From NCBI RefSeq assembly GCF_000466985.1, contig NZ_BATC01000004.1, positions 1 to 64,000 on the forward strand: a DNA stretch of 64,000 bases. Direction: 5' to 3'. The DNA comes from Brevundimonas abyssalis TAR-001. Lineage in GTDB: Bacteria; Pseudomonadota; Alphaproteobacteria; Caulobacterales; Caulobacteraceae. Positions 24,521 through 64,000 of this stretch are shown here, piece by piece. The notes beneath the pieces were generated by a model. The model made no database searches, was not told the origin of the DNA, and worked only from the letters and a program-made list of their open reading frames with translations. Made by a program: the position numbers and the translations under genes. How positions within the stretch are numbered: the stretch's first letter is position 1; the number at the start of each line of letters is the position of its first letter.

Positions 24521-24547
24521 CCCTCTCCCCTTGAGGGAGAAGGCGAC
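24521..24547. repeat. Terminator-like palindrome, left copy flanking the island
   Basis: CTCTCCC pairs imperfectly with GGGAGA(A)G right after secA. The 27-nt block matches 50867-50893 at 24 positions in direct orientation. The second copy sits right after the ThDP-enzyme gene at the far end of the island. It could be an intrinsic terminator or REP, and also the duplicated integration site. Confidence 0.55.
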
Positions 24548-27393: not shown

Positions 27394-29597
27394 CTACCGT
27401 GAACGGCTTCGATCTACTTCCGTAATTCTCTCGCGGGGCGCGCTGCGTCCCAAGGTCCTAGCGAGTTCGGCGCTTCCCGCAAACTCTTCGCGCCCATACC
27501 GCAAGCTGGCCGCGTCACGGTGCCGGCTCATCGCCACATACGACGCATGTCGATTCATGCTCCGGCTGGCGAGAACGTAGGTCCTGTCGACCGTCGCTCC
27601 CTGCATCTTGTGGACCGTCGCCGCGTACCCGTGCGCCAGGTCCGCATAGTCTTTGCGGTCGAACCGTACGTGGCGGCCGTCATCCAGCCTTACCTCCATC
27701 TCGCTTGCACTGAGCCACAGCAGAGTCCCTAGCGAGCCGTTCTTGACCCCGAGCGACCGATCATTGCGCAGGAACATTACTCGGTCGCCGATTGCGAACG
27801 CCCGTTCGCCCCGCGTGGTCTCCACCCGCTGATCGGGTCCCAGCTGACCCTCCGCCCGCAGCGCGTCCCGGGCCAGCCGGTTCAGCTCCGCCACGTCGGC
27901 TCGGGTATAGGCCATCAGCATCTGCGAACCGGTCGGTTCGCGCCTTCGGTCCGCCAGCCAGTCGTCCACCAAGGCGCGGCGGGCCTCGTCGCTTGTGTCG
28001 TGCCCATGAACAGCTCCGGCCGCCTCATAGCGGCCCAAGGCCTCGGCCGTGCGCCCGGTAGCCAGCTCCTTCGTCGCCTGCCGCTGCCAGCTCTCCCGCT
28101 GCCTGCGTACCTCCGCGATCTCGACCGCGCCGTGCCGCTCAACAATCCGCCGGAGCGGCGCACCCGCCTCTATGGCCTGAAGCTGCTCGGGATCGCCTGC
28201 CAGCACCACCTTGGCGCCAGCGCGGTCCGCTTCCTCAAGGATGCGGCGCATCTGCCGCGTGCCGACCATCCCGGCCTCGTCGATCACCAGCACGTCGCCT
28301 GCGGACAGCCGGTCACGCCCGCGCGCCCATGAATGTTCCAGGCTCGCCAGCGTCCGCGATGCGATGCCTGAACCCTTCTCAAGGTTCTCGGCGGCAATCC
28401 CGGACAAGGCCGCTCCGACGACGCGATAGCCCTCTGCCTCCCAAGCGGCGCGGGCGACGCCGAGCATGGCGCTCTTGCCGGTGCCCGCGTAGCCGACCAC
28501 AGCCGCCAGCCGGCCGGACGCCAGCACATGCGCCACCGCCAGCACCTGTTCCCCGCTCAGCGGTCGGTCGGACCGCTTCTGCGCGGCGGCGGCCGCTCGC
28601 AGGGACCGCTCGGTGACGCCGCGATGATAGCCGTCCGCCAACCGATCCGACGCGCGCACCAGCGCGTCTTCGGCCCGGATCATGTCCCGGCTGGTGAAGC
28701 GCTCCCGGCCCCTGTCGTCCGGCTCAAGTCGGACCAACTCGGACGAGGCCAGAAGCCGGGCATGAAGCCGGTCGAACTGATCCTTGCCGTCGGTGTGGCG
28801 GAACACGAACCGCGCCAGGTCGTGGCGACTGAACGTCGCCTGGGTGTGGGTCAACGCTTCAAACGCCGCCGCCGGATCGCGCAGCAACCGCTCGCCGTTC
28901 CGCCGCGCGATCTCGCGATGCTCTTCGGCCCGTACCGAGGCCCGGCCGCGCGCTTCCAATCGCGCGGCGGCCGGGCCGATCTTCGACTGTGGCTCCAGCT
29001 CGACGCCTGATCCTTGAGCGGGCGGTGATCGATGCGAATGTCGAGATCGAGTTGGGCGAGACGTTCGTTGACGTGGTCGGCCCAGGCCGCACGCCAGTGT
29101 TCCAGAAGGGCGGCGCTGTTCCAGTCCCGGACCTTGGGACCGAAGCCATCGGCGGTCGCCTCCCTCAACGCCAGCATCACGTGTGCATGGGGCTTGGGCA
29201 GGCCGTTCTCGCCGACATCGCAGTGAACATTGAGGTCAGCGACCATACCGCGAGCCACGAACTCCCGCTGGACAAAGCTGCGGGCCAGCTCGATGCCGTC
29301 GTCGGGGCCGATCTCGCGCGGCAGGGCGAACTCGATCTCGCGGGCGAGCTGGGCGTCCTTGCGCTTCTCGCCCCACTCGATCTCGTTCCAGAGCGCCTGC
29401 CGGTCGGACCAGCGCTCCGGCGCGCCGTCCGGCAGCAGAATCTCGGAGTGCAGCACGCCGCTCTTGCGGCTGTAGTCGCGGTGCTGCTCGGTGCGCTCGT
29501 CGAACAGGCGCGAGGCCGAACGGTAGGCGGCCGCCGCCACGGCGCTGCGGCCGGTCGAGCGGGAGATGACCTTGGCCGAGAAGTGGTAGATAGCCAC
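27394..29597 (-). pseudogene. traA: Ti-type conjugative relaxase/helicase TraA, frame broken once
   Basis: GTG start at 29597, giving VAIYHFSAKVISRSTGRSAV, the MobA/MobL (MobQ) N-terminus. The histidine cluster is PKPHAHVMLALRE. After LKDQ one G is missing near 29005-29007. Corrected, it continues RLEARGRASVRAEEHREIA into the helicase part, with Walker A VGYAGTGKSAML, VLVIDEAGMVG and AHGYAATVHKMQGATVDRTY. The corrected length of about 734 residues is shorter than typical TraA (around 1000 or more), lacking the C-terminal extension. It nicks oriT and unwinds the transferred strand. It is divergent from mucR/traC/traD, as in Ti-type tra regions. Confidence 0.82.
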
Positions 29598-29623
29598 GAC
29601 CGCAGCGCCCTGAAGCAAAGCGC

Positions 29624-29653
29624 ACGTCGGAACGACGTATAAGCGCGCACTCC
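29624..29653 (+). other. oriT: Putative oriT (MobQ/RSF1010-like nic region)
   Basis: A perfect 6-bp hairpin ACGTCG-GAA-CGACGT (29624-29638) is followed two bases later by AAGCGCGCACTCC. The string TAAGCGCG/CACTC matches the RSF1010/Ti-type nick site TAAGTGCG/CCCTC at 11 of 13 positions, with the nick expected after 29647. The location, 27 bp upstream of the relaxase start and between divergent tra genes, is where oriT sits in Ti-type systems. Confidence 0.7.
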
Positions 29654-29687
29654 GGACAGCATGTCCGTCGTGACGGGCGCTCGCGTC

Positions 29688-29704
29688 CCGCAAGCCTACG
29701 GAGG
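29688..29704 (+). repeat. Short direct repeat, copy 1
   Basis: CCGCAAGCCTACGGAGG, found again with one change at 30265-30281. It lies between the oriT-like site and mucR, and its relation to regulation is unknown. Confidence 0.45.
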
Positions 29705-29802: not shown

Positions 29803-30246
29803 ATGGACAATCCGACTGCCGACGCTGACCTGATCGGCATGACCGCCGACATCGTCTCGGCCTATGTTTCGAACAACCAGATCGAGGCTGGCGCGCTGGC
29901 CGGGATGATCGCCGCCGTCCACGGAGCGTTGGCCGGCACGTCGCAGCCGGCAGCGCCGGAGCCAGAGCCGCAGGCGCCAGCAGTGCCAATCAAGAAGAGC
30001 ATCACCCCCGACTATCTGATCAGTCTTGAGGACGGCAGCCGCTACAAGTCGCTGCGGCGGCATCTCACGACGAAGTACGGCATGACGCCGGACGAGTACC
30101 GCGCCAAGTGGGGACTGCCGAAGGACTATCCGATGGTCGCGCCGAACTACGCCAAGGCCCGCTCCGAATTGGCGAAGGCCTCGGGCCTCGGCCAGGGCGG
30201 TCGAAAGCCAGCGGCGAAGCGCGGTCGCAAGCCCGCCGCGAAGTAG
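29803..30246 (+). CDS. Ros/MucR family regulator lacking zinc ligands
   Basis: A 147-residue protein with the full Ros/MucR fold signature: LEDGSRYKSLRRHLTTKYG, then MTPDEYRAKWGLPKDYPMVA. The Cys that starts the classical C-x2-D-x9-H-x4-H motif is Ser (74), and the last His is Lys (91); Asp77 and His87 remain. Zinc-free Ros homologues that still bind DNA are known in rhizobia. The tail GRKPAAKRGRKPAAK is AT-hook-like. It probably represses tra genes or the divergent traA. ATG 29803 is chosen over an earlier in-frame start outside the family. Confidence 0.85.
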   Translation: MDNPTADADLIGMTADIVSAYVSNNQIEAGALAGMIAAVHGALAGTSQPAAPEPEPQAPAVPIKKSITPDYLISLEDGSRYKSLRRHLTTKYGMTPDEYRAKWGLPKDYPMVAPNYAKARSELAKASGLGQGGRKPAAKRGRKPAAK

Positions 30247-30253
30247 CGCCTCA

Positions 30254-30289
30254 CGCGCGCGCCACCGCAAGCTTACGGAGGCGCGCGCG
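30254..30289. terminator. 10-bp perfect hairpin after mucR, containing repeat copy 2
   Basis: CGCGCGCGCC pairs with GGCGCGCGCG around a 16-nt loop. The loop and right arm include the second copy (30265-30281) of the repeat at 29688. There is no T-run, so it could be a terminator or a processing or protein-binding site. Confidence 0.5.
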
Positions 30290-30343
30290 ACTCACCGCCG
30301 CTCTAGACTGCCGGCTCCCCGGATCACTGCGGAGCCGCCACAC

Positions 30344-30652
30344 ATGCGCAAGCCCAAGGCCATCGACGCCGAACTGGCCGCCCTCGCCGAACGAACGGCG
30401 GCGCTAAAGGCTCGCCGCGTCGCCCAGCTCGGCGAGCTGGTCATCGCCACCGGCGCCGACGCTCTGGAGGTCGAGGCTCTGGCCGGGGCGCTTCTGTCGG
30501 CGGCAGGCGAGACGGACGCCGCCGCTCAACGCCGCTGGCGGGTCCAGGGCGAAGCCTTCTTTCGCGGAGGAAAGGCGGACAGAGCTACTCCACCGGCTTC
30601 GGGCGACAGCGGCACGGCTGGCCAAACTCCCCGCTCTGGTCCGGCGGGTTGA
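30344..30652 (+). CDS. Conjugal transfer protein, TraC-like
   Basis: A 102-residue protein. IDAELAALAERTAALKARRV followed by LGELVIATGADALEVEALAG is typical of small tra accessory proteins encoded next to traA in Ti-type elements. They assist relaxosome formation. It is 4 bp before the TraD-like gene. Databases label such proteins TraC or TraD inconsistently. Confidence 0.75.
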   Translation: MRKPKAIDAELAALAERTAALKARRVAQLGELVIATGADALEVEALAGALLSAAGETDAAAQRRWRVQGEAFFRGGKADRATPPASGDSGTAGQTPRSGPAG

Positions 30653-30656
30653 GGCG

Positions 30657-30929
30657 ATGCGACGCCGGGCCGATCACCACGAACGGCAGAGCGAGCGCCG
30701 CGCTCGCACGCGCCGCCTGATCGAACTCGGCGGGCTGGTGCAGAAGGCCGGGCTGGTCGAACTGACCGGCGACGACCGCAACGTCCTGTTCGGCGGCTTC
30801 CTGCTGGTCTCCGAGATGCTGCGATCCGACCGGCGGGACGCCGTCCTAGCGGTCCTGGAGCGAAAGGGTCGGCGCGGGTTTCGGGGTGACAAGGAGTCCG
30901 CCACAGACGAAGCTCCGACCTCATGGTGA
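30657..30929 (+). CDS. traD: Conjugal transfer protein TraD-like
   Basis: A 90-residue basic protein. ERRARTRRLIELGGLVQKAG is the TraD signature of Ti-type systems. In complete systems traG (coupling protein) follows; here an MNT-HEPN gene follows instead, so the transfer region is cut short. Confidence 0.78.
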   Translation: MRRRADHHERQSERRARTRRLIELGGLVQKAGLVELTGDDRNVLFGGFLLVSEMLRSDRRDAVLAVLERKGRRGFRGDKESATDEAPTSW

Positions 30930-31006
30930 TCCGCCGCGAATACCACCGGGCCGGCCGCGAGGAGCTTCGCCTTGCGAAGCAGGCCGGCAGGCGCAAGACT
31001 CGTTCG

Positions 31007-31924
31007 ATGAAGACGAGTCTCGATCACCTGCCCGCCGGCAAGCGCCGCGAACTGGACCACGTGATCGCCGTGCTGCGCGAGGAGTTCGCCAGCGCCATCG
31101 CCAGCCGTAAGGCGGAGGGGGTTAAGGACGGACAGATCCTCAAGGTCATCCTCTACGGCTCCTATGCGCGGGGCGACTGGGTCGAGGATCCCGTTGGCCG
31201 CTACTTCTCCGACTTTGATATGCTGGTCGTTGTCAGCCACGAGAAACTGACGGACGTGCTGGAGTTCTGGGAAGGAGCCGAGAAGCGGCTGCTCAAGGAC
31301 TTGGCCTCCGGAGCCGATCTGCGAACGCCCGTGAGCCTGATCGTGCACTCGCTCGATGACGTGAACGACCAGCTGACCCAAGGCCGCTACTTCTTCGTCG
31401 ATATCGTCCGCGAAGGCATCGTCCTGGCCGATGAGCCCGGTCACCCGTTCGTTGATCCGCAGCCGCTGCCCGACGATGCGGCTCTGCGAGAAGCGGAGAA
31501 GTACTACCGCGAACATTTTACGGCCGGGCAACAGTTTCTCCGGCAGGCCGAACACGCCATCGCTGACGACGCGCCGAAGGTTGCGGCCTTCGATCTCCAT
31601 CAGGCGGCCGAGCATTTCTACAATGCCGTGTTGCTGGTCGCGACGCTCTACACGCCGAAGTCTCACAACCTCGTCCGACTGCGGAATACCGCCGAGCCGA
31701 TTGATGCTCGATTGGCTGAGGTCTGGCCGACTGAAACCAAGTTCCAGAAGCGGTGCTTCGAACTGCTGCGCGCCGCCTATGTGAAGGCGCGATACTCCGA
31801 ACACTACAGGGTGACGGGCGAGGAGCTGGCGTGGATGCTGGAACGCTTGGGCGTGCTCAGGAGCGCGGTGGTGGCGATTTGTGCGGATCGGCTCAACAAA
31901 TTGAGGCAGGCCGATAGGGACTGA
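31007..31924 (+). CDS. Nucleotidyltransferase (MNT) plus HEPN domain protein
   Basis: A 305-residue protein. The N-terminal MNT domain has GSYARGDW at 51-58 and the metal-binding Asp pair in FSDFDMLV (69 and 71). The C-terminal part (about 190-300) is a HEPN-type helical domain (HQAAEHFYNAVLLVATLY). MNT and HEPN usually occur as separate antitoxin and toxin; here they are one chain, as in KNTase-C-like proteins. The start at ATG 31007 follows an unconvincing Arg-rich upstream extension that overlaps traD. It may stabilise the element or add defence. Confidence 0.78.
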   Translation: MKTSLDHLPAGKRRELDHVIAVLREEFASAIASRKAEGVKDGQILKVILYGSYARGDWVEDPVGRYFSDFDMLVVVSHEKLTDVLEFWEGAEKRLLKDLASGADLRTPVSLIVHSLDDVNDQLTQGRYFFVDIVREGIVLADEPGHPFVDPQPLPDDAALREAEKYYREHFTAGQQFLRQAEHAIADDAPKVAAFDLHQAAEHFYNAVLLVATLYTPKSHNLVRLRNTAEPIDARLAEVWPTETKFQKRCFELLRAAYVKARYSEHYRVTGEELAWMLERLGVLRSAVVAICADRLNKLRQADRD

Positions 31925-32907: not shown

Positions 32908-33507
32908 TCAGACCTTCTCCGCCGGTCTCGCCTCGGCCCGGGCGTCCCGGAGGATATCGACGCCGCCCTTCACGGCGATCGCGGCCACGATCAGGCCCAC
33001 GACCAGATCCGGCCAGGCCTGGTCCAGCCACAGAACCAGGCCGCCCGCGATCAGGATGCCGCCGTTGGAGGCGAAATCATTGAAGCTGAAGGTCTCGGCG
33101 GCCTTCATGTTCACGTCGTCGCTGCGTTGGCGCCTGATCAATTCGAGGCACACGAGATTCACGACGGCGGCCACCACCGCCATGCCCATCATCGTCCAGC
33201 CGATCGGTTCCGTGCCCATCAGCGTCCGTCTCAGCACGTCGAGCAGGACGCCCGCCGCGAAGATCAGCAGCAGAATCCCGGAGGCCCGGGCGGCGCGGGT
33301 CTTCCAGATCAGGGCGCGGCCCACAGCCAGGAAGCTGATCAGGTAGACGGCGGAGTCCGACGCATTGTCCAGGGCGTTGGCCAGCAGGGCGCTGGAATTG
33401 GCGAGCAGACCGCCGATCCCAAGCCCGACAAACAGGGCGGCGTTGAGGATCAGCACCACCAGCAGGATGCGGCGCTGGATGCCCTCCGCCTCGTCTCGTT
33501 CGCTCAT
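32908..33507 (-). CDS. Small cation transporter (CDF superfamily-like)
   Basis: A 199-residue protein with about six membrane helices. ALLANALDNASDSAVYLISF and FSFNDFASNGGILIAGG carry the paired Asp pattern of CDF metal sites (DNASD, NDFAS). The C-terminal cytoplasmic domain of full CDF proteins is absent. The ATG overlaps the end of czcA by one base, so it is probably in the same transcript. Likely role: divalent metal efflux to the periplasm for the Czc pump. Confidence 0.75.
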   Translation of the reverse strand: MSERDEAEGIQRRILLVVLILNAALFVGLGIGGLLANSSALLANALDNASDSAVYLISFLAVGRALIWKTRAARASGILLLIFAAGVLLDVLRRTLMGTEPIGWTMMGMAVVAAVVNLVCLELIRRQRSDDVNMKAAETFSFNDFASNGGILIAGGLVLWLDQAWPDLVVGLIVAAIAVKGGVDILRDARAEARPAEKV

Positions 33508-36500
33508 CAGTCCTCGATCCCTTCCGCCTTGCGATGCTTCACCGCCTTGGCGGCGAAGGTGGGCAACACCAGCAGGGTCAACGCCGTCGCCGTCAAAAGG
33601 CCCCCGATGACCACCGTCGCCAGGGGTTTCTGGACCTCGGCCCCGGCCCCATGCGCTATGGCCATGGGGATGAAGCCGACGATGGCCACCAGGGCGGTGG
33701 TCAGGACCGCCCGCAGACGACTGGAGGCGCCTTCGATCGCGGCCTCGCGCGGCGCCAGGCCCGCGGTCAGACGCTCCCGGACCGCCTGCATGAGCACCAG
33801 GCCATTCAAGGTCGCCACCCCCGAAACGGCGATGAAGCCAACGGCCGCCGAGACCGAGAACGGCATGCCGCGCAAGAGCAGCGCCAGGGCCCCGCCGACC
33901 AGGGCGAGCGGGACGCAGGCAAACACCAGACCGGCTTCGGCGAACGACCCGAGGGCCATGAACAGCAGCACCCCGATGAGGATGAAGACGATCGGAACGA
34001 CGAGGCCCAGGCGCTGTTCGGCGCGCTTGAGGTTCTCGAACTGACCGCCCCAGTCGAGCCGGACGCCGGGCGGAAGGTCGATCTGTTCCACTCGCGTCTG
34101 CGCATCGGCGACGAAGCCGCCCAGATCCCGGCCGCGGACGTTGGCCTGCACCACCATGCGCCGGCTGCCGTTGTCGCGGCTGATCTGGTTCGGGCCTTCG
34201 GCTGTCTGGATCCGCGCCACCGAGGACAGGGGCACGACCACGCCGGTCGAGGAGACGATCGGCAAGGCGGCTAGGCTGGCGGGATCGTTACGGGCCGCCT
34301 CGGGCAGGCGGACGACGACGTCGAAGCGCCGATCGCCCTCGAAGATGCGGCCCGCTTCTGTGCCGCCGATGGCCGTGGAGACTGCCTCCGAGACGTCCGC
34401 GGCCGACAGGCCGTAGTTGGCGGCCGCGAAGCGATCGACGCTGACCGTCAGCGTGGGCAGCCCCGACGTCAGTTCGACCCGCACGTCGGCGGAACCCGGC
34501 GTTTCCTCCAGGGCGCGGGCGACCTGGTTGCCCACGCGCTGCAGGGTGTCGAAGTCATCGCCATAGACGAGAACCGCCAGATCGGTCCGGACGCCGGAGA
34601 TCAGCTCGTTGAAGCGTAGTTCGATCGGCTGGCTGAACTCGAAATTATTCCCGATCTGCTGACCCGCCGCCTCCTCGATGCGTTCGATGAGCGCTTCCTT
34701 CTCGAGGCCGGGATCCGGCCACTCGCCGCGGTCCTTGAGGATGATCACGCTGTCCGAGATGTTGCGTGGCATGGGATCGACGGCCGCCTCCGCCGTGCCG
34801 GTGCGCGAGAACACCGTCTCGACCTCGGGCTGCGCCTTGATGACCCGCTCGAGCGCCATCTGCATGGCCAGGGACTGATCCAGCGAAGCGGACGGCACGC
34901 GCAGGGCCTGCATGGCGATGTCGCCCTCGTCCAGGGTGGGAATGAACTCCCGACCCAGGGTGGTGAAGGCCAGGCCGCCGACGACCAGGGCGCCCAGGGC
35001 CGAGACGAGCACGATCCTGGGCTTGTCCACTGCGGCGCGGATCGCCGGCTCGATCCAGCGGCGGGCGAAGCGCAGGACGCGGGTCTCATGCTCCTGCACT
35101 TGGCCCTCGGCGTCGACGTGAACGCTCTTGGGATCGCGCACCAACAGCGCGGTCATGGCCGGTACGAAGGTGAAGGAGAAGATGAAGGCGCCGACAAGGG
35201 CGAGCATGACGGTCGCCCCCATCGGGATGAAGGTCTTGCCCTCCACGCCTTCCAGCATCAGCAGCGGCGTGAAGACCAGCAGGATGATCAGCTGGCCGAA
35301 GGCGGCGGGTTTCACCATCTGCCGCGCGGCGGCCATGGCGACGCCCAGCCGTTCGTGTCGACTGAGCATCCGGCCGAGTTGAGCCCTACGCTGGGTCATC
35401 ATCAGCAAGGTGTTCTCCACCACCACCACCGCGCCGTCGACCATCAGGCCGAAGTCGAGGGCGCCGAGGCTCATCAGGTTTCCGCTGATGCCGAAGCGGT
35501 TCATGCCGATGACGGCGAACAGGAAGCTGATCGGGATCATCAGGGCGGTGATGCTCGCCGCCCGCAGGTTCCCCAGAAGCAGGAACAGCACCAGGATCAC
35601 CAGCAGGGCGCCCTCGGTCAGATTGCGCGCCACTGTGCCGATGGTGGAGTTCACCAGGGCGCTTCGGTCGAGCACCGTCACCGCCTCGATCCCGGGCGGG
35701 AGGGTCTCGCGCACCTCCTCGAGGCGGTCGCCGGCGGCCAGGGCCACGGTGCGGCTGTTCCCGCCCGCGATCATCAGCGCCGTGCCGAGCACCGCCTCGT
35801 GGCCGTCACGGGTGGCGCCGCCAAGCCGCGGCGCCTGCCCGACCTCGACCGTCGCCACATCAGCGACGCGCACCACCAGCCGCCCCGATTGACGACCGGG
35901 GCCTGGGCGAGGTCTTCGATCGTGGAGGCCAATGCGTCGGTGCGAACCGTCAACGCCTCGCCGGCCCGCTGAACGTACCCGGCGCCCGCCTGGGTGTTGG
36001 CCCGCTCCAGGGCCGTGACGAGATCGCCCAGACCCAGCCCATAGGCCGACAGGCGGGCGGCGTCGGGGCGGACGGCGTACTCCTTGACATAGCCGCCGAT
36101 GCTGTCGACGCCGGCGAGGCCGGGCGTGGTCCGCATCTGCGGGGCGACGATCCAGTCCTGCACGGTGCGCAGGTAGGTGGCGCGCGCCTCGGGCGTGGCC
36201 AGCCGCTCGCCCTCGGGGGTCAGATAGACGCCGCCCGGCTGCCAACCGGGCTGCCCCGGCCTGGCGAGGTTCCGGCTGTTGAACGGCAGATAGTCCACCG
36301 TCCACATCAGCACTTCGCCGAGGCCGGTGGTGATCGGCGCCAAGGCGGGCTCCACCCCTTCGGGCATGCTTTCGCGGGCTTGGGCGAGCCGCTCGGCCAC
36401 CTGCTGGCGCGCGAAATAGATGTCCGTCTGGTCGGTGAAGATGACCGTGATCTGGCTGAAGCCGTTGCGGCTCAGCGAGCGGGTGCTGGTCAGGCCGGGA

Positions 36501-36727
36501 ATCCCGGCCATCGCCGTCTCGAGCGGATAGGTGACCTGTCGCTCGATCTGCTCAGGCGCGAGCGCCGGGGCGACCGTAGTGATCTGGACCTGGCGGTTGG
36601 TGATGTCTGGAACCGCGTCGATCGGCAGCTTGGTCAGTTCGAACAGACCCAGGGCGGCGACCAGCGCGGTCGCCAGGACGACGAACCAGCGGAAGCGGAC
36701 CGAGGCTTCAATGATGAGCTTGAACAT
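33507..36727 (-). pseudogene. czcA: CzcA-type heavy-metal RND efflux pump, frame broken once
   Basis: Starts MFKLIIEASVRFRWFVVLAT. One base is missing in a G/C run at 35883-35886. Corrected, the chain is about 1073 residues, the usual RND length. The transport motif in helix 4 reads DFGLMVDGAVVVVEN, the HME-RND pattern for divalent cations (Zn/Co/Cd/Ni). The periplasmic domains and twelve-helix plan are complete. It pumps metal through the CzcC channel using the proton gradient. It sits in a czcC-czcB-czcA unit. Confidence 0.85.
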
Positions 36728-36735
36728 GTCGCCTC

Positions 36736-37926
36736 CTAGTGGCCGTGCTCGGCTTCGCCCTTGGCGAGCTCGGCCTTGAGCAGGAAGGCGTTGGCGGCGG
36801 CGATGCGTTCGCCCCCTTCGAGGCCGCGCAGGATTTCCGTGCGCCCTCCCGCCTGGCGACCGGCCAGCACCGGGACGGCCCGGAAGCCGCCCTGGACCTG
36901 GACGAACACCACCGTCGCGCCTTCGATGGTCTGCACGGCTTCGCTGGGGACCGTCAGACCGCCGGTAGTGGGTTCACCGGTGACGATGGCGCCGGTGACG
37001 GCGGACCCCGCCGGCGGCAGCGACGCGCCCACAGGCCGGGCGCGAATGATCGTGGCCCCGCTGTCGGCGCCGGCGCCCGGCGCCACGCCGGTGACGACGG
37101 CGTCGAACTCCCCGTTGGGTCCTGTCGCTTTCATGCGGGATCCCGCGCGGACCTGGACGGCCAAGGCCGGCGGCGCATTGAAGACCAGCTCGATCCGGGC
37201 GGGATTGGTCACCTCGGCGACCACGCCGCCCTGCGGCACGAAGCCCCCGGGACCGACCTGCACCGAGGTGATCACGCCCGAGATCGGGCTAGCCACGCTC
37301 AGCCGTCCCGATGCGTTCGGCGATCCGGCCGCCGCGGCCCGCGCGCGGGCGGCGCGCGCCGCCGCCTCGGCGCTGAGAGATTGGGCGCGGGAGGCTTCGA
37401 CCTCCTGCCGGGCCACCACGCCTTGGTCGGCGAGGTTGCGATCGCGCTGATAGGCCTGCCGCGCGGCCTCGGCCTGCGCCGCCGCCGCGTCCGCATCGGC
37501 GCGGAAGGTCGCAGCGTCGCCGCTGACCAGTGTGGCGAGGGCCTGACCGGCGCGCACGGACTGCCCGGGCGCGACCAGCACGCGCTCGACCCGGCCGCCC
37601 ACCGAGGCGGCCACGGCGGCGCGCGCGTCGACCATGGGCTCGACGCGTCCGGCCAGCCGCGTCTCGGATCCGCCGCCGCCGCCGACGCTGACGACGCCGA
37701 TGCCGGCGGCGCGGATCTGATCGGCGGTGAGCGGCACGACGCCTGCGGGGGCCTCGGCTCCCTCGCCTTCCGCCTGCCCCTCTTCTTCCGCTTGAGCGGC
37801 CTCCCCCTCCGCCGCCGGCGGCGCGTCAGAGCTATTGAGGGCCAGGAACAGCCCGCCGCCTCCGAGCAGGACGAGGGCGGCGGCGGCGCCGATGAGCAGC
37901 GTTCTGTTGGCTTGCAGCTTGCGCAT
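36736..37926 (-). CDS. czcB: RND efflux periplasmic adaptor (CzcB-type)
   Basis: A 396-residue membrane-fusion protein. N-terminal anchor helix (about 13-30), an Ala/Glu-rich linker, a biotinyl-lipoyl-like domain split by an alpha hairpin (VLVAPGQSVRAGQALATLVS and SVASPISGVITSVQVGPGG), then barrel domains. It ends in HGH-like residues (EAEHGH). It joins CzcA to the outer-membrane channel. ATG 37926 overlaps the corrected czcC stop (TAATG). Confidence 0.9.
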   Translation of the reverse strand: MRKLQANRTLLIGAAAALVLLGGGGLFLALNSSDAPPAAEGEAAQAEEEGQAEGEGAEAPAGVVPLTADQIRAAGIGVVSVGGGGGSETRLAGRVEPMVDARAAVAASVGGRVERVLVAPGQSVRAGQALATLVSGDAATFRADADAAAAQAEAARQAYQRDRNLADQGVVARQEVEASRAQSLSAEAAARAARARAAAAGSPNASGRLSVASPISGVITSVQVGPGGFVPQGGVVAEVTNPARIELVFNAPPALAVQVRAGSRMKATGPNGEFDAVVTGVAPGAGADSGATIIRARPVGASLPPAGSAVTGAIVTGEPTTGGLTVPSEAVQTIEGATVVFVQVQGGFRAVPVLAGRQAGGRTEILRGLEGGERIAAANAFLLKAELAKGEAEHGH

Positions 37927-39180
37927 TATTGGGCCCCTCCAAAGGGCGCGCGCCTTGCAGGCGCGCGAGATCGATTTCGGCGCGGACGCGCGCCAGGCGG
38001 GCGTCGACGGCGGCGTTGCGGGCGGTGATCAGGGCGGCGCGGGTTCCGCGCAGCTCCAGTTGCGAGATGCGCCCGGCCTCGAAGCCGATCCGGGACAGAC
38101 GATAGGCTTCCTGCGACGCGGTCACCCCGGCGTCGGCCGCCGAGACGCGGCTCACCGACGCGTTGAGCCGGGCGACGGCCGCCTGACGGTCGGCCTCCGC
38201 GTCCTGCCGGGCTCCGGCCAGACGCGCGTCCGCGGCGCGGAACTCCGCCTGTGCGGCGTCGATATTGCCCCGGTTCCGATCGAACAGCGGCAGCGGCATG
38301 CTGATGCCGAAGGTTAGGGCCGTGGCGTCCTCGGCTTCGTATCGCCGGACGCCGACGCTGGCGCTGACATCCGGCCGCGCGCGCACCCGCTCGACGGCGA
38401 TCCGCCGCTCGGCCGCCTCGCGTTCGGCCTCGGCGACGCGCACCGCCGGCGCCCCGGGGCGGCTTCGAGGGGCGTCCGCAGCGGCGCATCGTCCAGCAGG
38501 CTGTCGGCGATCGACGTCGCCGGCGTGGGCAACATGGCGACCGCCGTCAGGCGGGCGAAGGCCGCGTCGCGTTCCGCCTGCGCCTCGTCCCGGGTGGCGC
38601 GGGCGGCCGCCGCCTCGCTCTCGGCCTGGATGCCGCGCAGCAGGGGCTCGCGCCCCTCCTCCACGAGCACGAGGGCCGCGCGGGCGTCCGCGATGGTCAG
38701 GCCGAGCGCCTCCTCGGCCAAGGCGAAGCGCCGCTCGGCGGCCTCGGCTTCAGCATAGACGAGCGCCAGCCGTCCGGCGGCGTCGACGACCGCCTGATCG
38801 CGACGCAGCGCGGCCGTTCCGGCCTCCGCCCGCGCCACCTCGACCCGGGCGCCGCGACGGCCCCATAGTTCGAGGTCCTGCGTGAGTGAGAGCGTGGTCT
38901 CGGCGTTGTCGTAGCCGGAGAAGGGGCCGCTGCCGAACGCATTCTCCGCTTCCAGGGCCGCGGTCGGATTGGGCCGCACGCGGGCCTGACGCACCCGGGC
39001 CTCCGCCGCCTCGAGGAGGGCGTCGGCTTCAGCTGCGGACGGGCTGGCCCCGATCCGCTCGAGCAGGGTCTGGAACGATGGCGCGGGGTCGGCCCAAGCG
39101 GGGCGGGGCAGTACGGTGGTCAGCGCGACCAGAGCGCAGCCGATCGCCAGGGGCGGCAGGCGGCGAATAGGGGATGGCAT
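37926..39180 (-). pseudogene. czcC: TolC-like outer-membrane channel CzcC, frame broken twice
   Basis: Signal peptide (MPSPIRRLPPLAIGCALVAL), then two OEP repeats rich in Ala/Arg/Glu helices. The frame is lost at 38452-38459 (one G in a CCCCGGGG run). Near the end, at 37941-37943, it is lost again: one added A/T pair restores the natural ending GARPFGGAQ and a stop overlapping czcB. The corrected length of about 418 residues fits the family. It forms the exit duct for the Czc pump. Confidence 0.82.
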
Positions 39181-49537: not shown

Positions 49538-50734
49538 CTAAACAGCCTCCCAACCGGGAAGGCCTTGAAGGATGCGGCCAGCATTTTTCACTGGGTTGAT
49601 GTGCCCATAGTGGTCCTCAATCATCTGCACCGACGTGCCCATCTGCTTCGACAGGAAATAGACGTCGACACCCTCGGTCAGTCGGAAGGTCGCGTAGGTG
49701 TGGCGGAAGCAATAGGTGGATCGGGTCGAGCCTGAGGCGCTGAGAAGCAGGCCTGCTTCTCTAAGCAGCGCCTCGATTTGATCGGCATAGAGCGTGGCTG
49801 CGGGATCGCCCTTGCCATTGATGAAGACGGCGCCCTCGGGCGCCGTGACTTTTTTCGTCAGGTCGCGAACTCGCTCCAGGTAGTCGGCGACATTGCCGGC
49901 GGCGACCAGTTGGCGAGCCTTGTCCTTGCCGCGCACGTTGAGAACGACAAGGCGACGTCCGTCCGCATCCGTGCGGATCGCCACATCCCTCCAGCGGAGA
50001 TTCTTCGCCTCAGCGGGCCGCATGCCCGTGTTGCACATTATTAGAATGAAGTTGTAGGCGAGCTGCCGATGCCAGCGGTACCGCTCGTTGCGGGCGCGCT
50101 TGATCCAGGCGCGCGCGAAGGTATGGAGCTTGCGGTACTCCTCCGGGGTGAACTCCTCCCGTCGGACCTTCGCCAAGGGTAGCTTGCCCTTGTAGACGTG
50201 GTTCTCGGGCACGAACCGCTTCGATGCCGCGTAGGCGAGCACGGAGCGGAAGATCGACATTTCGTAGCGGATGGTGGCGTCGGACACCGGGCGGCCGCCC
50301 CGGCCTTCACCGTTCTGGCGACGCCAGAGTGGATAGCCGAGGAAGTCATCATGGGAGACGTGGGCGATCTGCTTCGGTCCCACGTATCGGTCGAGTTGCG
50401 CTCGGATGATGGAGTCCACCACCTCCCACCGGTGGTGGGTGATTTCGCCTGCCTCTGACCGGGCTTTCTGATGCTCGGCATACATCTTGGCGATCTGAGC
50501 GAAGGTGCGATTGAACACCGGCACGTCGTGCTTGACCCGAAAGCGAAGGTCCGCGTCCGCGTCGAAGGCCGCTTCCTTGGCCGAAGTGACATCGGCGGTC
50601 CGGAGCGAGACCGTCTTGTAGCGATCCGAACCGGGCACCTTGATGCGGCAGTACCAATTGCGGTGCTGGACGTCGGCGCGGCGGAAGAGAATGAGGCCAG
50701 GTTTCAGCTCCTGGGGGTCGATCAAAAAGGCCAT
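49538..50734 (-). CDS. int: Tyrosine recombinase / integrase
   Basis: A 398-residue protein. SAM-like N-terminal domain (TFAQIAKMYAEHQKARSE), then the catalytic domain with the first Arg in NTGMRPAEAKNLRW, HxxR in CFRHTYATFR, and the nucleophile Tyr in IEDHYGHINP. It inserts and excises the island by site-specific recombination. It lies at the right edge, with its start 133 bp from the right palindrome copy, a normal position for an integrase next to its att site. Confidence 0.93.
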   Translation of the reverse strand: MAFLIDPQELKPGLILFRRADVQHRNWYCRIKVPGSDRYKTVSLRTADVTSAKEAAFDADADLRFRVKHDVPVFNRTFAQIAKMYAEHQKARSEAGEITHHRWEVVDSIIRAQLDRYVGPKQIAHVSHDDFLGYPLWRRQNGEGRGGRPVSDATIRYEMSIFRSVLAYAASKRFVPENHVYKGKLPLAKVRREEFTPEEYRKLHTFARAWIKRARNERYRWHRQLAYNFILIMCNTGMRPAEAKNLRWRDVAIRTDADGRRLVVLNVRGKDKARQLVAAGNVADYLERVRDLTKKVTAPEGAVFINGKGDPAATLYADQIEALLREAGLLLSASGSTRSTYCFRHTYATFRLTEGVDVYFLSKQMGTSVQMIEDHYGHINPVKNAGRILQGLPGWEAV

Positions 50735-50866: not shown

Positions 50867-50893
50867 CCCTCTCCCCGTGAGGGAGAGGGCAAC
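50867..50893. repeat. Terminator-like palindrome, right copy flanking the island
   Basis: Direct-oriented match (24/27) to 24521-24547. It forms CTCTCCC/GGGAGAG and lies at the 3' end of the ThDP-enzyme gene. With the left copy it brackets the island; a duplicated core of an integration site is the favoured reading. Confidence 0.55.
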
Positions 50894-57250: not shown

Positions 57251-57442
57251 ATGCAAAACGCACCACATGTCCACGATGACAAGTCGGCCCATCGCCTGTC
57301 AGTCAGCCTGACAGCGGAGCAGCATAGGGAGCTAAACGAGATAGCCCGCAAGAATCGAGTATCAGTAGCATGGGTCGTCCGCGAAGCGGTTGACCGTCTC
57401 CTCAAGGAAGACATGCCTCTGCTTCATATGGGGAAAGAATGA
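57251..57442 (+). CDS. Ribbon-helix-helix (CopG/Arc-type) regulator
   Basis: A 63-residue protein: HRLSVSLTAEQHRELNEIAR as strand plus helix, then VSVAWVVREAVDRLLKED as second helix. ATG 57251 is chosen because earlier in-frame codons run through the operator. It overlaps the methylase start by 4 nt (ATGA). It probably represses its own promoter and so times expression of the downstream methylase and nuclease, like a restriction controller protein. Confidence 0.7.
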   Translation: MQNAPHVHDDKSAHRLSVSLTAEQHRELNEIARKNRVSVAWVVREAVDRLLKEDMPLLHMGKE

Positions 57443-59192
57443 CTTCCGCTCGCACCACCAAACCCCGCGCTCCTAAGTCAAAGGTTGCCGCCTCTACAGT
57501 GTCACCGCGCGGTCGCTTTGCTGACCTAGACAAAGACAAGTTGCGAGGTGGCTACTACACGTCTGCACAGGTCGCAGCGTGGCTTTGTGAATGGGCGATC
57601 CAGTCTGCTGATGACACCGTACTGGAGCCGAGCTGTGGTGATGGCGCTTTCTTGGAAGCAGCCGCCCAGAGACTTTTGTCGTTGGGCGTGACACCTGCGA
57701 AGATTCCACATCACCTCACCGGTGTTGAGATCGTCACCGCAGAAGCGCGCGCGGCGACGGAACGCCTGCGCCCCGATCTCGGAAAAGCCGCGGACAAAAT
57801 CGTTTGCAACTCGGATTTCTTCGGTTGGTGGCAGGGAACCGATCAACCCGCTTTCGACGTGATCGTGGGCAATCCTCCCTTTATTCGTTATCAGTCTTTC
57901 CCCGAACCGCACCGCGCCCGCGCCATGGCGATCATGGGCGATCAGGGGCTGAAACCGAACCGTCTGACCAACATCTGGGTGCCGTTCGTCGTTGCGGCGA
58001 CGGCCAGCCTAAAACCGGGTGGCCGCTTGGCGCTCGTCCTGCCGGCGGAAATTCTACAAGTCACCTATGCTGCTCAACTCCGGTCGTACCTGACAGATCA
58101 TTTCGAGCGTATCGACGTTATCGCCTGCAACGAGCTGTTCTTTGAGAACGCTGAACAGGAGGTTGTGCTGCTGCTGGCAGATGGCGCACTGGCCGCCGCA
58201 ACCGAAGACAACACCTGCCGGGTCGCGCTGACGGCGGCGGAGACGGTGGCCGACATCACCGACATCCGGCCCGCCCTGCTGCTCGATCGGGCCGAACCGA
58301 AGATCATTTGCCATGACAGTGAGAAGTGGCTGAAATACTTCCTAGACAACCGGCAGATTTCTTTCATGCGTGAGCTACGCGATGCAGAAATCACCTCCTC
58401 CATGTCCACACACGCAAGTATCGACGTGGGCGTGGTCACGGGTAAGAATGAGTTTTTCGTACTTTCAACTGATCAGGTCAAAGACTTCGGCCTTGAAGGC
58501 TACACGACACCTTTAGTGTCGCGTTCCGTGCAGCTCAAAGGAAGCCAGCTCGGCAAGGCCGATTGGATATCCCTTGCCGCCGATGGAAACCGCGTGCATC
58601 TGCTCAATATCAGCGCGGCACAGGCCAGCGAATTGAGTGCTAAGTTACGGCAATACATTGAGGATGGCGAACGGAAGGAGTTCCACAAGGGATACAAATG
58701 CTCAATCCGCAAACCGTGGTATCTGGTACCTTCTGTTTGGGTGCCGGATGGCTTTGCCTTCCGGCAAATTTATGACTTTCCGCGCATGGTGTTGAATGCT
58801 TCAGGGGCGACCTCCACCGACACAATCCACCGGATGCGCAGCCATGGTGCGAAGCCGGAGCGGGTGATCGCCAATACCTATACATGGCTTACAGCCGCTT
58901 CGGCCGAGATCGAGGGGCGTAGCTATGGCGGCGGCGTATTAGAGCTGGAGCGACCGAAGCCGAGCGGCTATTGATGCCGGCGAAGCTCAACGGCGCCATG
59001 CCACTTAAAGACGTCGATCAACTTGTCCGCGCCGGACGTTTGGACGCGGTGCTTGAGGAAAACGCGAAAATTATCTTACGCGAGCATATGGGCCTGAGCG
59101 CCGCAGACTGCGACCTTCTGAAAAGCGTTTGGACACAGATGAGGGACCGTCGCAATTCGCGCCGGCGCGGTACGCGGAAACAGGCGATATGA
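57439..59192 (+). pseudogene. N6-adenine DNA methylase, frame broken near the C-terminus
   Basis: SAM site LEPSCGDGAFLEAAAQ (about 62-77) and catalytic VIVGNPPFIRYQ (Asn145), i.e. a gamma-type N6-adenine methylase. The target-recognition region fills the second half. One C is missing near 58950; restored, the chain continues through MPAKLNGAMPLKDVDQLVRA to a stop at 59192 (about 584 residues). The second piece alone would be a 73-residue orphan. It has no nuclease domain and is ATGA-coupled on both sides, so it is probably the protecting methylase of the following restriction enzyme. Confidence 0.8.
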
Positions 59193-62100
59193 CCGGTCCA
59201 GACCTGAAGGCAGCCGCGCGCGCTCGGGTCGGCGAGCTGGTTCAGAGCTTCAGGCGCAACGAAGCAGACTATCTGCGCGCCGTCTATAACGAGACGCAGG
59301 CCCGCACCGACTTCATCACGCCATTACTCGCGGCGTTCGGATGGGACGTGCACAATGCGGCTGGCCAGCCTCTTGGCCTGCGGGAAGTCATTGAAGAGGC
59401 CACGGTTGAGGTTGGCGAAGAGCGGCTCTCCAAGAAGCCGGACTATGAACTGCGCCTTGCCCGCCAACGCAAGCTGTTCGTCGAAGCCAAAAAGCCGAGC
59501 ATCCATATCGACCGCAACCGGGACGCGGCGTTTCAGACGCGGCGTTACGGATATTCCGCCAGCCTGCCGATCGCGGTGCTGACCAACTTCCATCAACTTG
59601 CGGTCTATGACTGTAAGCCCAAGCCCGACCTGACCGACGAAGCGAATGTCGCGCGCATTCTGCTGGTGCGCTACGACGAGCTCGAGGCTCGCTTTGACGA
59701 GCTGTGGCCGCTGCTCTCCCGCGCGGCGGTCTATTCGGGTGATTTCGACCGGCGTTTCTCCGTCGATGTGACGCGCCATGGGGCGGAACAGTTCGACGAT
59801 TTCTTCCTCCGCCAGGTGCGTTCGTGGCGCGAGCGGCTGGCGCAGGACATTCACTGCAACACGCCCGGCCTCTCGCCGGAAGAACTTACCTATGCGGTGC
59901 AGCTTTTTCTTTTGCGGATCGTATTCCTGCGCATCTGTGAAGACCGCGACATTGAACGCTATGAAACCCTGCGCGACCTCGCTGCCGGCGACGGCAGTTT
60001 CAATGCCTTACTGGCGGAGCTGCGGCGAGCGGATGCCTTCTACGATTCCGGCCTGTTCCGGCTTCTCGATGACGCCCGGCTGGGCGTCCGCGTAAGCGAT
60101 GATGTGCTGAGCGGGATCATCAACGAGCTATATTATCCGCAGAGTCCATATACCTTCGCCGTGGTCGAAACCGAAGTGCTTGGTGAAATTTACGAGCAGT
60201 TCCTGGGCGAGATCATCACGATCGACGCTGCCGGCGCGGTCGAGATCTCCAGCAAGCCGGAAGTCCGGGAAAGCGGTGGCGTGGTGCCGACGCCCCGCTA
60301 CATCGTTGACGCCATCGTTCAGCGCACGCTTGGCCCGCGCCTCGCCGGCAAGGCCCCGACCGATCTGGCGGTGTTCACGGTTGCCGACATTTGCTGCGGC
60401 TCCGGCATCTTCCTGCTCTCGGTGTTCGAGTTCCTGACCGACCATTATCTGGCTTGGTATCAGGCCAACGACCGCGCGGCGCATGTCGGTCGGACGATCT
60501 ACGAAGCCGGGGCAGGACTGTGGCGGCTCACCTTCGAGGAAAAGCGCCGCATTCTGCTTGCCCATGTCCGAGGCGTGGACATTGATGCCAATGCCGTAGA
60601 GGTGGCCCGCTTCAGCCTTCTCCTGAAGCTGATCGAGGACGAAGGCGCGGCCGGTCTCCGCGATTACGTTGGGCGCACTGGCACGCCGGCCCTTCCGGAG
60701 CTGGACGGAACGCTGCGGGCGGGCAACAGCCTCGTCAGTCAAGCGGAATGGACGGCCGCGCGGGGTGCGCTGCCGGCCCAGTTGCTGGAGAAGGTCAACC
60801 CATTCTCGTGGGCCGACGAGTTCCCCGCCGAAACGGCGCGGGGCGGGTTTGACGTGATCGTGGGGAACCCGCCCTATATCCGCATCCAGAACATGCAGGC
60901 GTATTCCCCGGAAGAAGCCGCTTTCTATCAAAACGCCGCCTCGCCCTACACGACAGCGCGGCAGGACAATTTCGACAAGTATGCGCTGTTTATCGAGCGG
61001 TCCTTGTCTCTTGTCCGACCGGACGGGCGGCTTGGCGTCATCATCCCGCACAAATTCATGACGATTCAGGCAGGGCGTGCGCTCCGCCATCTAGTGACGG
61101 CCAACCATATCCTTGAAGAGATCGTGCATTTCGGCGTGCAGCAGGTCTTCGGGCGGCAGGCGGCGAATTACACCTGCCTGCTGATCCTCGACCGGCAGGG
61201 CAAGGCCGATGTGATGGTGGAGCGCGTCGAGGCTCTGGAGCCGTGGCGCTACGGGACGCCGGGCCCCCGGAATGTGCTGCCGGCGGCCGAACTGACGGAT
61301 GATCCTTGGCAGTTCGCGGACGACGACACGCGCGCGCTGTTCGCGCGTGTGCGGGCGGCCTGCGGCCGCGAGCTGGGGAACGCGGCGGAAATCTTCGTCG
61401 GCGTCCAGACCAGCGCCGATCCGATCTATATTTTCCGCGCGGCGGCCGAGACGGCCGACACGGTAACGCTACGATGGGACGGCAGGGACTGGCCGATCGA
61501 GCGCGGCATTCTCCGGCCCTGCCTGCATGATGCCAAGCTCTATCCCTTTACACGGGCCGAAGCGAACGCATGGATGATCTTCCCTTATGAGATCGTCCAT
61601 GCTGCCCGCACCACGGCCCGGCTGATCCAACCGGCAGACATGGCGCGGCGCTTCCCCGTGTGCTTCGCGTATCTGACGGCGCGGAAGGCCGAACTGGAGC
61701 GCCGCAATGTCGTCGGCGGCACCGCCGCCGATCGGCAATTCTACCAATTTGGCCGCTCCCAAAGCCTGACGAAGTTCGACAGCCCGAAGATCATCCTTCC
61801 CATTCTCTCGCTCGAAGCCCGCTATGCTTACGACGAAAGCAACATCATGATGACTGGCGGCGGGAACGGCCCGTATTACATGATCCGCCCGCAGGACGGC
61901 GCACCGGAAAGCAATTTCTTCCTGCTGGCGGTGCTGCATCATCCCCTGAGCGAAGCGATGGTCAGGACGCACACAAGCCCCTTCCGGGGCGGTTACTATT
62001 CTCACGGCAAGCAGTTCATCGAGCATCTGCCGATTCCGCCGGCGACGCTGGTGCAGCGCACCGAGATTGAAACGCTGGTTCGTCAGCTGATCGACGCCAA

Positions 62101-62257
62101 CGATGCCATACTGGCGGCACGCACACCGCGCCAGAAAACGCTCCATGAGCGCAACGCGGTCGCGCTGCGCGAACGTATTGAAGCCCGTGTCAGCGCGTTG
62201 TTTTTACTGTCGGCGACAGATATGGCTCTGGCCAAGGCAGTGCCTGTACCTTCATGA
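59189..62257 (+). CDS. Type IIG restriction-modification enzyme (Eco57I-like)
   Basis: A 1022-residue single-chain enzyme. The N-terminal nuclease of PD-(D/E)xK type has PDYELRL (Asp85) and FVEAKKP (Glu99, Lys101). A helical linker follows, then the SAM site VADICCGSGIFLLSVFEF near 400 and VIVGNPPYIRIQ near 560. The C-terminal target-recognition domain ends with a long helix. It would cut and methylate DNA, with its specificity fixed by the C-terminal domain. The start is ATG 59189, overlapping the methylase stop. Confidence 0.88.
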   Translation: MTGPDLKAAARARVGELVQSFRRNEADYLRAVYNETQARTDFITPLLAAFGWDVHNAAGQPLGLREVIEEATVEVGEERLSKKPDYELRLARQRKLFVEAKKPSIHIDRNRDAAFQTRRYGYSASLPIAVLTNFHQLAVYDCKPKPDLTDEANVARILLVRYDELEARFDELWPLLSRAAVYSGDFDRRFSVDVTRHGAEQFDDFFLRQVRSWRERLAQDIHCNTPGLSPEELTYAVQLFLLRIVFLRICEDRDIERYETLRDLAAGDGSFNALLAELRRADAFYDSGLFRLLDDARLGVRVSDDVLSGIINELYYPQSPYTFAVVETEVLGEIYEQFLGEIITIDAAGAVEISSKPEVRESGGVVPTPRYIVDAIVQRTLGPRLAGKAPTDLAVFTVADICCGSGIFLLSVFEFLTDHYLAWYQANDRAAHVGRTIYEAGAGLWRLTFEEKRRILLAHVRGVDIDANAVEVARFSLLLKLIEDEGAAGLRDYVGRTGTPALPELDGTLRAGNSLVSQAEWTAARGALPAQLLEKVNPFSWADEFPAETARGGFDVIVGNPPYIRIQNMQAYSPEEAAFYQNAASPYTTARQDNFDKYALFIERSLSLVRPDGRLGVIIPHKFMTIQAGRALRHLVTANHILEEIVHFGVQQVFGRQAANYTCLLILDRQGKADVMVERVEALEPWRYGTPGPRNVLPAAELTDDPWQFADDDTRALFARVRAACGRELGNAAEIFVGVQTSADPIYIFRAAAETADTVTLRWDGRDWPIERGILRPCLHDAKLYPFTRAEANAWMIFPYEIVHAARTTARLIQPADMARRFPVCFAYLTARKAELERRNVVGGTAADRQFYQFGRSQSLTKFDSPKIILPILSLEARYAYDESNIMMTGGGNGPYYMIRPQDGAPESNFFLLAVLHHPLSEAMVRTHTSPFRGGYYSHGKQFIEHLPIPPATLVQRTEIETLVRQLIDANDAILAARTPRQKTLHERNAVALRERIEARVSALFLLSATDMALAKAVPVPS

Positions 62258-62264
62258 TTACAAA

Positions 62265-64000
62265 TCAGCCGTTTCGAGATTGCCCCCGCAGGCATTCGAT
62301 AGCCGACGCGATGGCCGCATCATCCGGTTTGGCAGATCCCCATTCCTTCCAGAAATCCCGCGTAGCGCTATCGGGTGCCACTTTGGGCATATCGAGCTTG
62401 ATCCGCGTTGGTAGAAGAACCGCATCACCCAACAACAGCGCCTCACCCGTATCAAGTAACGGCAAAATGCTCGTCAGCCCCGCCAGCGAATCCGGCATCA
62501 GGCGCTTGATGACGCCCTGATCGGTTTCATTCGTCAGGCGCAGAGCCAAGAAATTATTGCACTGGCTCAGGATCGTCCGGCTGACATCCGACGGGCGCTG
62601 ACTCACCACCAACAACGAGAAGCCATATTTACGGCCTTCCTTGGCGATTCGCTCGAATGATCCGAGGGCTTGACGCTGGACCGCGTCAGCGTCATCGCGA
62701 ACCGGAAGATAAAGATGCGCCTCGTCGCAGAGCAGCGTAACCGGCGTCCGGGTCTTCCCGCTCATCCAGAACTGAACATCATAAAGTAGCCTCGCCAGCG
62801 TCCCCGTCACCACGGGGAGTACGTCGGCGGGCACTTCGGAGAAGTCGATAACCTTGATGCCTGTGTCATCGCCAGATTGCAGCAGTTTGAGCATCTGCGC
62901 TGAAAGCCAGTCGTATTTCATCGCAGCAGGTGGCGGTGCGAACATGAAACCGTAGCGACGATCGTCCAGCTTTGCTTCGAGGCGCGACAGGAACCGCGTC
63001 AGCTTGTCCTCCCATTCCCCCTTCACCGGTCCAGTCTTACCAACGCCTTTTGTGGTGTTGTCTGTGTTCAGAAGCCCGACTAATTGTTTCACATCGTAGG
63101 GTATCGGTGAATCGACGGTGTATGTTTTCTTGATGTTTGCCTTACCCTCGGCGTCGAGGGTCTGTCCTTTTAGAGAGCGGACATGCAGAGTGAACCGTGA
63201 CGCCTGATTGGGGGCGTTCTGGTCGCTGCGATCGAGGATCATCGACAGCATTTCATCGCGATTAAGCAGCCAGTACGGCAGGAATAGCGTGTCGTCGCCC
63301 GGATTTTCCAGATCGCCGGGACCAGCAATGCGGAAGCGCGTGGCAAATCCTCCATTCGCTTTGTCCGCCAAGGGGGCATATTCGCCATGCATGTCGAACA
63401 CGATGATGTTCGGAAATTTTAGCTTCGCGGCCCGTTCAAGGATCAGCGCAACCGCCCAGCTTTTACCTGATCCAGTACTACCGAGAATTGCTGCGTGGCG
63501 CTGGAAGAACTTGTCGCCACTGGCAATCGCGTCGGCCGTGCGATCCGCGACGAACGTGCCGAGCTTGAGCCTTTCATCGGCGGAGAAACCGGCTCCGAGG
63601 ATGCCCATGAAGCGTTGAAGGTTCCCGCCTTCGATGACGAAGCAGTCTCTATCGATTTGCGGAAAGCTATCGGCACCGCGCTTGAAGGTATTCCTACGAT
63701 CACCCTCCACCGTTCTGAATGTCCCAATCAACACGCCTTGGATCAGGTCGGTCGGCACCGCCGCCAAAAGCCCGCCATCGGCATCTTCATCGTCCGGGCC
63801 GGGCAATTCCTCCCTGACGCTGCGGGTGACGCGCTCGGTCATGGCGATGAGATATTCGCGCTCCGTCGCGCCGCGAATGGCGATGAGCTGTCCGATGCCG
63901 ATCCGCGTGAGCAGAACGGAGTTCGTCACATCGATCGCAACACGGCTGGTATCGACCGACGCGACGCGTCCGATTTTATCCTCGTCAGCAAATTGGAGAG
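62265..64000 (-). CDS. HerA/DUF87-type ATPase, 5' end beyond window
   Basis: The frame stays open to the window edge, so the N-terminus is missing. Visible are a HAS-barrel-like start (DKIGRVASVDTSRVAID), Walker A LGSTGSGKSWAVALILE, and Walker B VTLLCDEAHLYLP. An Arg finger-like SQRPSDVSRTILSQ and the LRLTNETDQGVIKRLMP motif follow. HerA proteins form hexameric rings that pump DNA and work with nucleases; in defence islands they pair with SIR2, NurA-like or DUF4297 effectors. Any partner lies outside. It is convergent with the type IIG gene (7 bp). Confidence 0.87.
   Translation of the reverse strand, partial: LQFADEDKIGRVASVDTSRVAIDVTNSVLLTRIGIGQLIAIRGATEREYLIAMTERVTRSVREELPGPDDEDADGGLLAAVPTDLIQGVLIGTFRTVEGDRRNTFKRGADSFPQIDRDCFVIEGGNLQRFMGILGAGFSADERLKLGTFVADRTADAIASGDKFFQRHAAILGSTGSGKSWAVALILERAAKLKFPNIIVFDMHGEYAPLADKANGGFATRFRIAGPGDLENPGDDTLFLPYWLLNRDEMLSMILDRSDQNAPNQASRFTLHVRSLKGQTLDAEGKANIKKTYTVDSPIPYDVKQLVGLLNTDNTTKGVGKTGPVKGEWEDKLTRFLSRLEAKLDDRRYGFMFAPPPAAMKYDWLSAQMLKLLQSGDDTGIKVIDFSEVPADVLPVVTGTLARLLYDVQFWMSGKTRTPVTLLCDEAHLYLPVRDDADAVQRQALGSFERIAKEGRKYGFSLLVVSQRPSDVSRTILSQCNNFLALRLTNETDQGVIKRLMPDSLAGLTSILPLLDTGEALLLGDAVLLPTRIKLDMPKVAPDSATRDFWKEWGSAKPDDAAIASAIECLRGQSRNG

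Follow-up and report, generated by a model that had tools for sequence, protein, structure and literature searches.

The window, a 64,000-nucleotide stretch of Brevundimonas abyssalis TAR-001, carries a short block of DNA between a relaxase gene on the minus strand and a regulator gene on the plus strand. The features around it are as follows.

29624..29638, plus strand: hairpin 1 of the putative transfer origin (oriT), ACGTCG-GAA-CGACGT, the presumed relaxase-binding site
29639..29639, plus strand: one-base spacer between hairpin and core, A here and A or G in most relatives compared
29640..29652, plus strand: nick-region core TAAGCGCG/CACTC, which the window reads as TAAGCGCGCACTC
29648..29672, plus strand: candidate second inverted repeat, CAC (29648-29650) with GTG (29670-29672)
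28851..29597, minus strand: relaxase domain (MobQ/MobA_MobL), first part of a split traA, GTG start at 29597
27394..28959, minus strand: helicase part of traA, in another frame, recognised by profile matches
29803..30246, plus strand: ROS/MucR-type regulator (PF05443), divergent from the relaxase
30344..30652, plus strand: TraD, a small conjugal transfer protein of the Ti kind (PF06412), after the MucR gene

Read from the plus strand, the block has the structure that the original prediction gave it, a hairpin with a GAA loop followed by a nick-like core. The arms (29624-29629 and 29633-29638) are 100% complementary around the loop (29630-29632), an inverted repeat is present directly 5′ of the nick region, and TAAGCGCGCACTC matches TAAGTGCG/CCCTC (that is, TAAGTGCGCCCTC) at 11 of 13 positions. 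By analogy with RSF1010, the nick is predicted between 29647 and 29648. The distance of 27 bp given for the block upstream of the relaxase gene is right, because the relaxase starts at GTG 29597 on the minus strand. Its placement between divergent tra genes holds on the relaxase side; the direct divergent neighbour is the ROS/MucR gene, and TraD comes only after it. Taken together, the hairpin and adjoining motif are very probably an origin of mating transfer of a known general type (MOBQ), judging from sequence comparison.

The adjoining protein belongs to the class of enzymes that such an origin calls to mind. Its first 197 residues form a MobQ domain, which scores 249.3 bits against NF041496 (NCBIfam MobQ; cut-off 200) over profile positions 1-197 of 197 and 214.1 bits against PF03389, and which aligns with the solved nicking enzymes 4ht4 and 2ns6. 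In alignments judged by eye, Y25 falls on a phenylalanine of the 4ht4 chain, which we take to be the mutated active tyrosine, and on the tyrosine region of 2ns6, while the PHAH motif falls on PHAH/PHCH. Both parts of the gene match the NCBIfam TraA_Ti profile, the helicase part above its cut-off.

The bare motif is not rare. With up to three mismatches allowed, the window has 13 sites for the 13-mer where 19.7 would be expected, and a second site with only two mismatches lies at 36836; that the 13-mer alone is no commoner than expected is what speaks for a chance match of a GC-rich stretch. Under a strict rule (core with at most two mismatches plus a hairpin arm of at least 6), the window contains a single match and 0/40 dinucleotide shuffles gave one, which, with the conservation beside relaxases described below, makes chance exceedingly improbable. 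A looser rule (three mismatches, arm of 5) gives two matches in the window against a shuffle average of 0.75 and is therefore not significant alone. Conservation supplies most of the evidence beyond chance.

Conservation beside relaxase genes

The strict hairpin and core lie just upstream of MOBQ/TraA relaxase genes in 55/61 homologous loci, always on the strand opposite the relaxase (0/61 on the relaxase strand). The 61 upstream regions comprise 60 of 62 relaxase-domain loci, the truncated L050 and L062 being omitted, together with the sister copy L001 from the same genome. The six exceptions are L021, L024 and L036, each with a single mismatch in the arms, L022, with two, and L045 and L060, without a core. 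With position, strand, spacing, hairpin and core all conserved with the relaxase and a MobQ domain adjoining, the assignment to an RSF1010/Ti-type oriT is strongly supported.

Among 299 family genomes, 78 contain the 15-mer GCGCTTATACGTCGT with at most one mismatch and 90 have a PF03389 match (E 0.001). Exact GCGCTTATACGTCGT sites number 65, of which 63 precede a relaxase among the matches listed; 62 of these, again among the matches listed, lie 80-107 bp before the PF03389 match and on the same strand as the 15-mer, and one (G054) lies 484 bp before its relaxase match and has a hairpin. The other two sites are copies of a single place, with no hairpin, within a methyltransferase gene of a duplicated 13.9-kb plasmid, a dimer in which the 15-mer is a chance match. 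Orphan origins without a relaxase (hitch-hikers) were also considered among the 65 exact sites and rejected, the only two sites without a relaxase being this single duplicated, hairpin-less place. At one mismatch, at least five sites lie beside a relaxase and others, such as GCGCTTCTACGTCGT, are without one among the matches listed and are taken as chance; reversed-pattern controls at one mismatch have matches in many genomes too.

The hairpin arms occur in several versions, all of them complementary: ACGTCG/CGACGT, ACAACC/GGTTGT, ACGTCA/TGACGT, ACATTG/CAATGT and GAGTTG/CAACTC. Arms that differ between clades yet stay complementary fit a single-stranded hairpin that would be read by the relaxase. 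They also bear on a second reading, which makes the conserved block chiefly a control element of the relaxase gene, either an operator or a structure in the mRNA leader, with autorepression by the relaxase, TraD or MucR. In favour of this, 26 nt separate the block from the start codon of the relaxase, a MucR-type gene lies next to it, and an operator could equally account for conserved DNA in front of a gene; in pMV158, according to passages of PMC5863519, the relaxase binds at oriT and thereby represses the gene that encodes it. An operator, however, would not need a MOBQ nick-like core next to the hairpin, as in RSF1010, nor does it sit well with changing, complementary arms and a strand that is constant in 61 loci. 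We consider a mainly regulatory role very unlikely, although a block of this kind can be operator and oriT both.

The same architecture is seen beside other relaxases of the family and on plasmids. In family loci without the exact motif, 17/26 upstream regions (15/18 + 2/8) chosen from a longer relaxase list contain a hairpin, a spacer of 1-2 bases and a TAAGTGCGCCCTC-like core with at most three mismatches, where chance would give about 0.014 matches per 1.2-kb region, as calculated from 0.75 per shuffled window. In L151, L152 and L153 the core is on the relaxase strand. Among plasmid regions, 6/7 have hairpin and core, two of them from rhizobial TraA plasmids in which traA and traC flank the core; the same search misses 9/26 of the chosen upstream regions and 1/7 of the plasmid regions. 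The 35-mer or a near form of it occurs in 129 plasmid records. As a side observation, the 27,756-base record of plasmid pNIBR24542 (L134, L154) seems to be a 13,878-base plasmid in dimeric form, with the same genes twice, and PLSDB types it as non-mobilizable despite a traA and an oriT of the same type.

Several characterised systems resemble the block in part. The RSF1010/R1162 relaxase MobA is related by sequence (the 2ns6 match), although a TraA-like relaxase-helicase is found here and MobA, which carries a primase part, there. Passages of PMC4814116 give the RSF1010 substrate and cut as CAGTTTCTCGAAGAGAAACCGGTAAGTGCG/CCCTCCC, and in both systems the cut strand has a GAA-loop hairpin followed on its 3′ side by a TAAGNGCG/C nick region. 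The hairpin here is 6 bp and of different sequence, whereas the repeat there is 10 bp (PMC4814116, in the same passages); by our reading of the published sequence the spacer is one base here and absent there, and the cores differ at 2/13 positions. Against the MOBQ nick consensus NWACCNNTAAGTGCGCCCTYNN, as given in a passage of PMC3832669, the oriT matches by eye at 13/17 specified positions; relatives with ATAAGCGCGCCCT (39/86 distinct sites) have a core closer to that consensus.

The oriTs of Ti and rhizobial TraA plasmids likewise lie beside traA between divergent genes. In p64a and pCB3060_4, a 6-7 bp hairpin with arms ACGTCG or CGTCGC is followed by the spacer A and the core TAATTGCGCCCTT, between traA and traC, and the Ti plasmid oriT is also between traA and traC. 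Here, by contrast, the core is TAAGCGCGCACTC and a MucR gene stands in place of traC. The pAtC58 oriT is placed between traA and traC as well in the part of PMC4992315 that describes it. Plasmids of sphingomonads and acetic acid bacteria, such as pISP0 (Sphingomonas sp. MM-1) and pGX4 (Komagataeibacter xylinus), have nearly the same core plus hairpin beside traA and traD and, in pGX4, a MucR gene too; unlike the integrated island described below, these are plasmids. Sphingobium plasmid pPDL2 was considered as a prior description of this oriT and set aside, a strict scan of its region having found nothing; passages of PMC3516476, which hold no sequence, report an oriT upstream of repB that is said to match the pLB1 oriT. 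The exact oriT is not described in the available passages of PMC3516476, PMC9676059, PMC10272884 and PMC4992315, nor did we find it among the papers listed, largely open-access, for the motif itself and for TraA, sphingomonad, Ti, pLB1, Caulobacter and Brevundimonas oriTs, which is not proof of novelty.

A candidate second repeat at the predicted nick

Beginning at the predicted nick, CAC(TCCGGACA)...GTG folds back over 29648-29672, with an inner stem CGGACA/TGTCCG and loop GCA. In counts that ignore the relatedness of sequences, the complement of the first three post-nick bases is found at an offset of 17-29 in 45/58 distinct sequences against 12.1 expected by shuffling, and inner stems of at least 4 are found in 27/46 outside the Sphingobium-like group (13.0 expected) and in 0/12 within it (2.3 expected). 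Fold energies are weak (mean z -0.57; 13/83 under -2). Exchange of A/C with T/G (CAC/GTG to CCC/GGG) is consistent in 77/82 rows, where a mechanical rule, wrong for L132 at least, assigned the T/G base. A tree of 84 rows, limited to sites with a relaxase start in the sequence compared, has three independent pairs, two of them supported, and on average the second base changes along with the first in 0.8 of them, with no significance. Because independent pairs on the tree are few and covariation is weak, we treat the second repeat as a lead only.

If the repeat were genuine, the cut would fall between the relaxase hairpin and a hairpin 2 whose first three bases form the 5′ end of the transferred strand and pair with their complement about 22-24 nt further along (CAC with GTG, or GGG in the case of CCC). 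Such a hairpin could then control nicking, shield the 5′ end, or capture it again when transfer terminates. The idea is not without parallel, since passages of PMC5863519 describe a switch in pMV158 (MOBV) that consists of alternative hairpins around the nick. A passage of PMC5789077 puts the oriT region of RSF1010 at only 38 bp and mentions no second repeat. The wider proposal, a two-hairpin nick site in a MOBQ clade combined with a split-relaxase island that rides on a sister relaxase and a neighbouring conjugative channel, is speculative and we regard it as unlikely.

The metal-resistance island, its relaxase and possible partners

The putative oriT lies within an island whose outer features are as follows.

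24521..24540, plus strand: candidate left attachment repeat, just after secA
49538..50734, minus strand: tyrosine integrase, near the right end of the island
50867..50886, plus strand: candidate right attachment repeat, with 50886 as the point where homology to a related integrase module of genome G303 ends

The repeat CCCTCTCCCCNTGAGGGAGA occurs only at 24521 and 50867 in the incomplete genome assembly, and the candidate attachment sites span 26,366 bp end to end. The cargo includes MerT, MerF/MerC, heavy-metal-binding domains, RND and cation efflux genes, and two pyridine-nucleotide oxidoreductases, one of which is perhaps a mercuric reductase. Like traA, the RND pump gene and the outer-membrane efflux gene (33507-36727, 37832-39180) look split over two frames. 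Secretion or coupling genes, and traG or trb, were not found among the part of the island ORFs that was scanned, and both the PF03135 and the PF02534 matches of the genome fall elsewhere; the window contains no tRNA. In genome G168 the secA and TPP-enzyme genes that flank the island lie about 370 kb apart on one contig; in the other genomes compared they sit on separate contigs, so that the comparison yielded no empty integration site. The island is probably a 26.4-kb mobilizable element with these candidate attachment ends. Further right in the window, two methylase/restriction genes of the Eco57I type occupy 57439-62257, and a HerA-like helicase gene comes next (62265-63929).

A sister element is present on contig C110 of the same genome. 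There the relaxase is one uninterrupted frame of 737 residues from GTG, which matches the two parts in the window at 84.8% and 71.4%. The segments 27477-29702 and 29830-31862 align to C110 at 77% and 75% identity, the 127 bases between them being unaligned in that search, and the 47 bp of the oriT core region (29612-29658) are identical in the sister. The shared module also includes, beside the transfer genes, a nucleotidyltransferase-HEPN protein (30923-31924), which may have a toxin-antitoxin-like or defence role.

Contig C125 extends rightwards beyond the window and, at about 71.8-97 kb (L169, L174), carries a DUF3363-type relaxase, a coupling protein and a serine recombinase, together with VirB11-, VirB4-, VirB6-, VirB8-, VirB9- and VirB10-like genes (those looked for). 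These type IV secretion genes are about 50 kb from the oriT, and the VirB-bearing second mobile element is a possible helper for the island. Another VirB-type cluster lies on contig C43.

The split in traA qualifies the claim that a cognate TraA serves this origin. A relaxase does adjoin the block, and its gene is divided between two frames in the contig; the role of cognate TraA may therefore fall to the sister copy of C110, and the element may not transfer by itself. One reading is that the oriT is a relic, which worked in an ancestor and is unused now that traA has decayed. The three split genes of the island point this way, while several of the neighbouring chromosomal genes, scanned without a systematic survey, match profiles over their full length. 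Against a relic, the 47 bp of oriT are unchanged from the sister element, gene splits in a draft genome can be sequencing errors, and a relaxase can act in trans; assembly error and decay are both possible causes of the island gene splits. On balance a relic seems rather unlikely, and since that reading overlaps the best explanation, the probabilities that we attach to the readings do not sum to one.

That best explanation, which we hold with high confidence from the comparisons above, is that the block is the oriT of an integrative mobilizable element of about 26 kb, served by a MOBQ relaxase of the TraA family. What the sequences show directly is the hairpin with its spacer and core, the constancy of their position and strand next to relaxase genes, and their conservation. 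For relaxase binding, the exact nick, the direction of transfer and the use of a helper, we infer the following course. The relaxase would bind the 6-bp hairpin on the plus strand, cut between G29647 and C29648, and remain linked by its tyrosine to CACTCC at the 5′ end. The plus strand would then leave rightwards through a secretion channel that another element provides, with MucR, TraD, the metal genes and the integrase going first and the relaxase gene last. With the relaxase gene split between frames, the separate relaxase domain may still work, the C110 sister may act in trans, or the split may be an assembly error.

These results would give one short and testable oriT to a large set of islands and plasmids from caulobacteria and sphingomonads, this metal-resistance island included. 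They also suggest a signature by which such origins may be found, namely a hairpin, one base and TAAGNGCGCNCT. Finally, two elements with the same origin in one cell would offer a clean setting in which to test transfer in trans.
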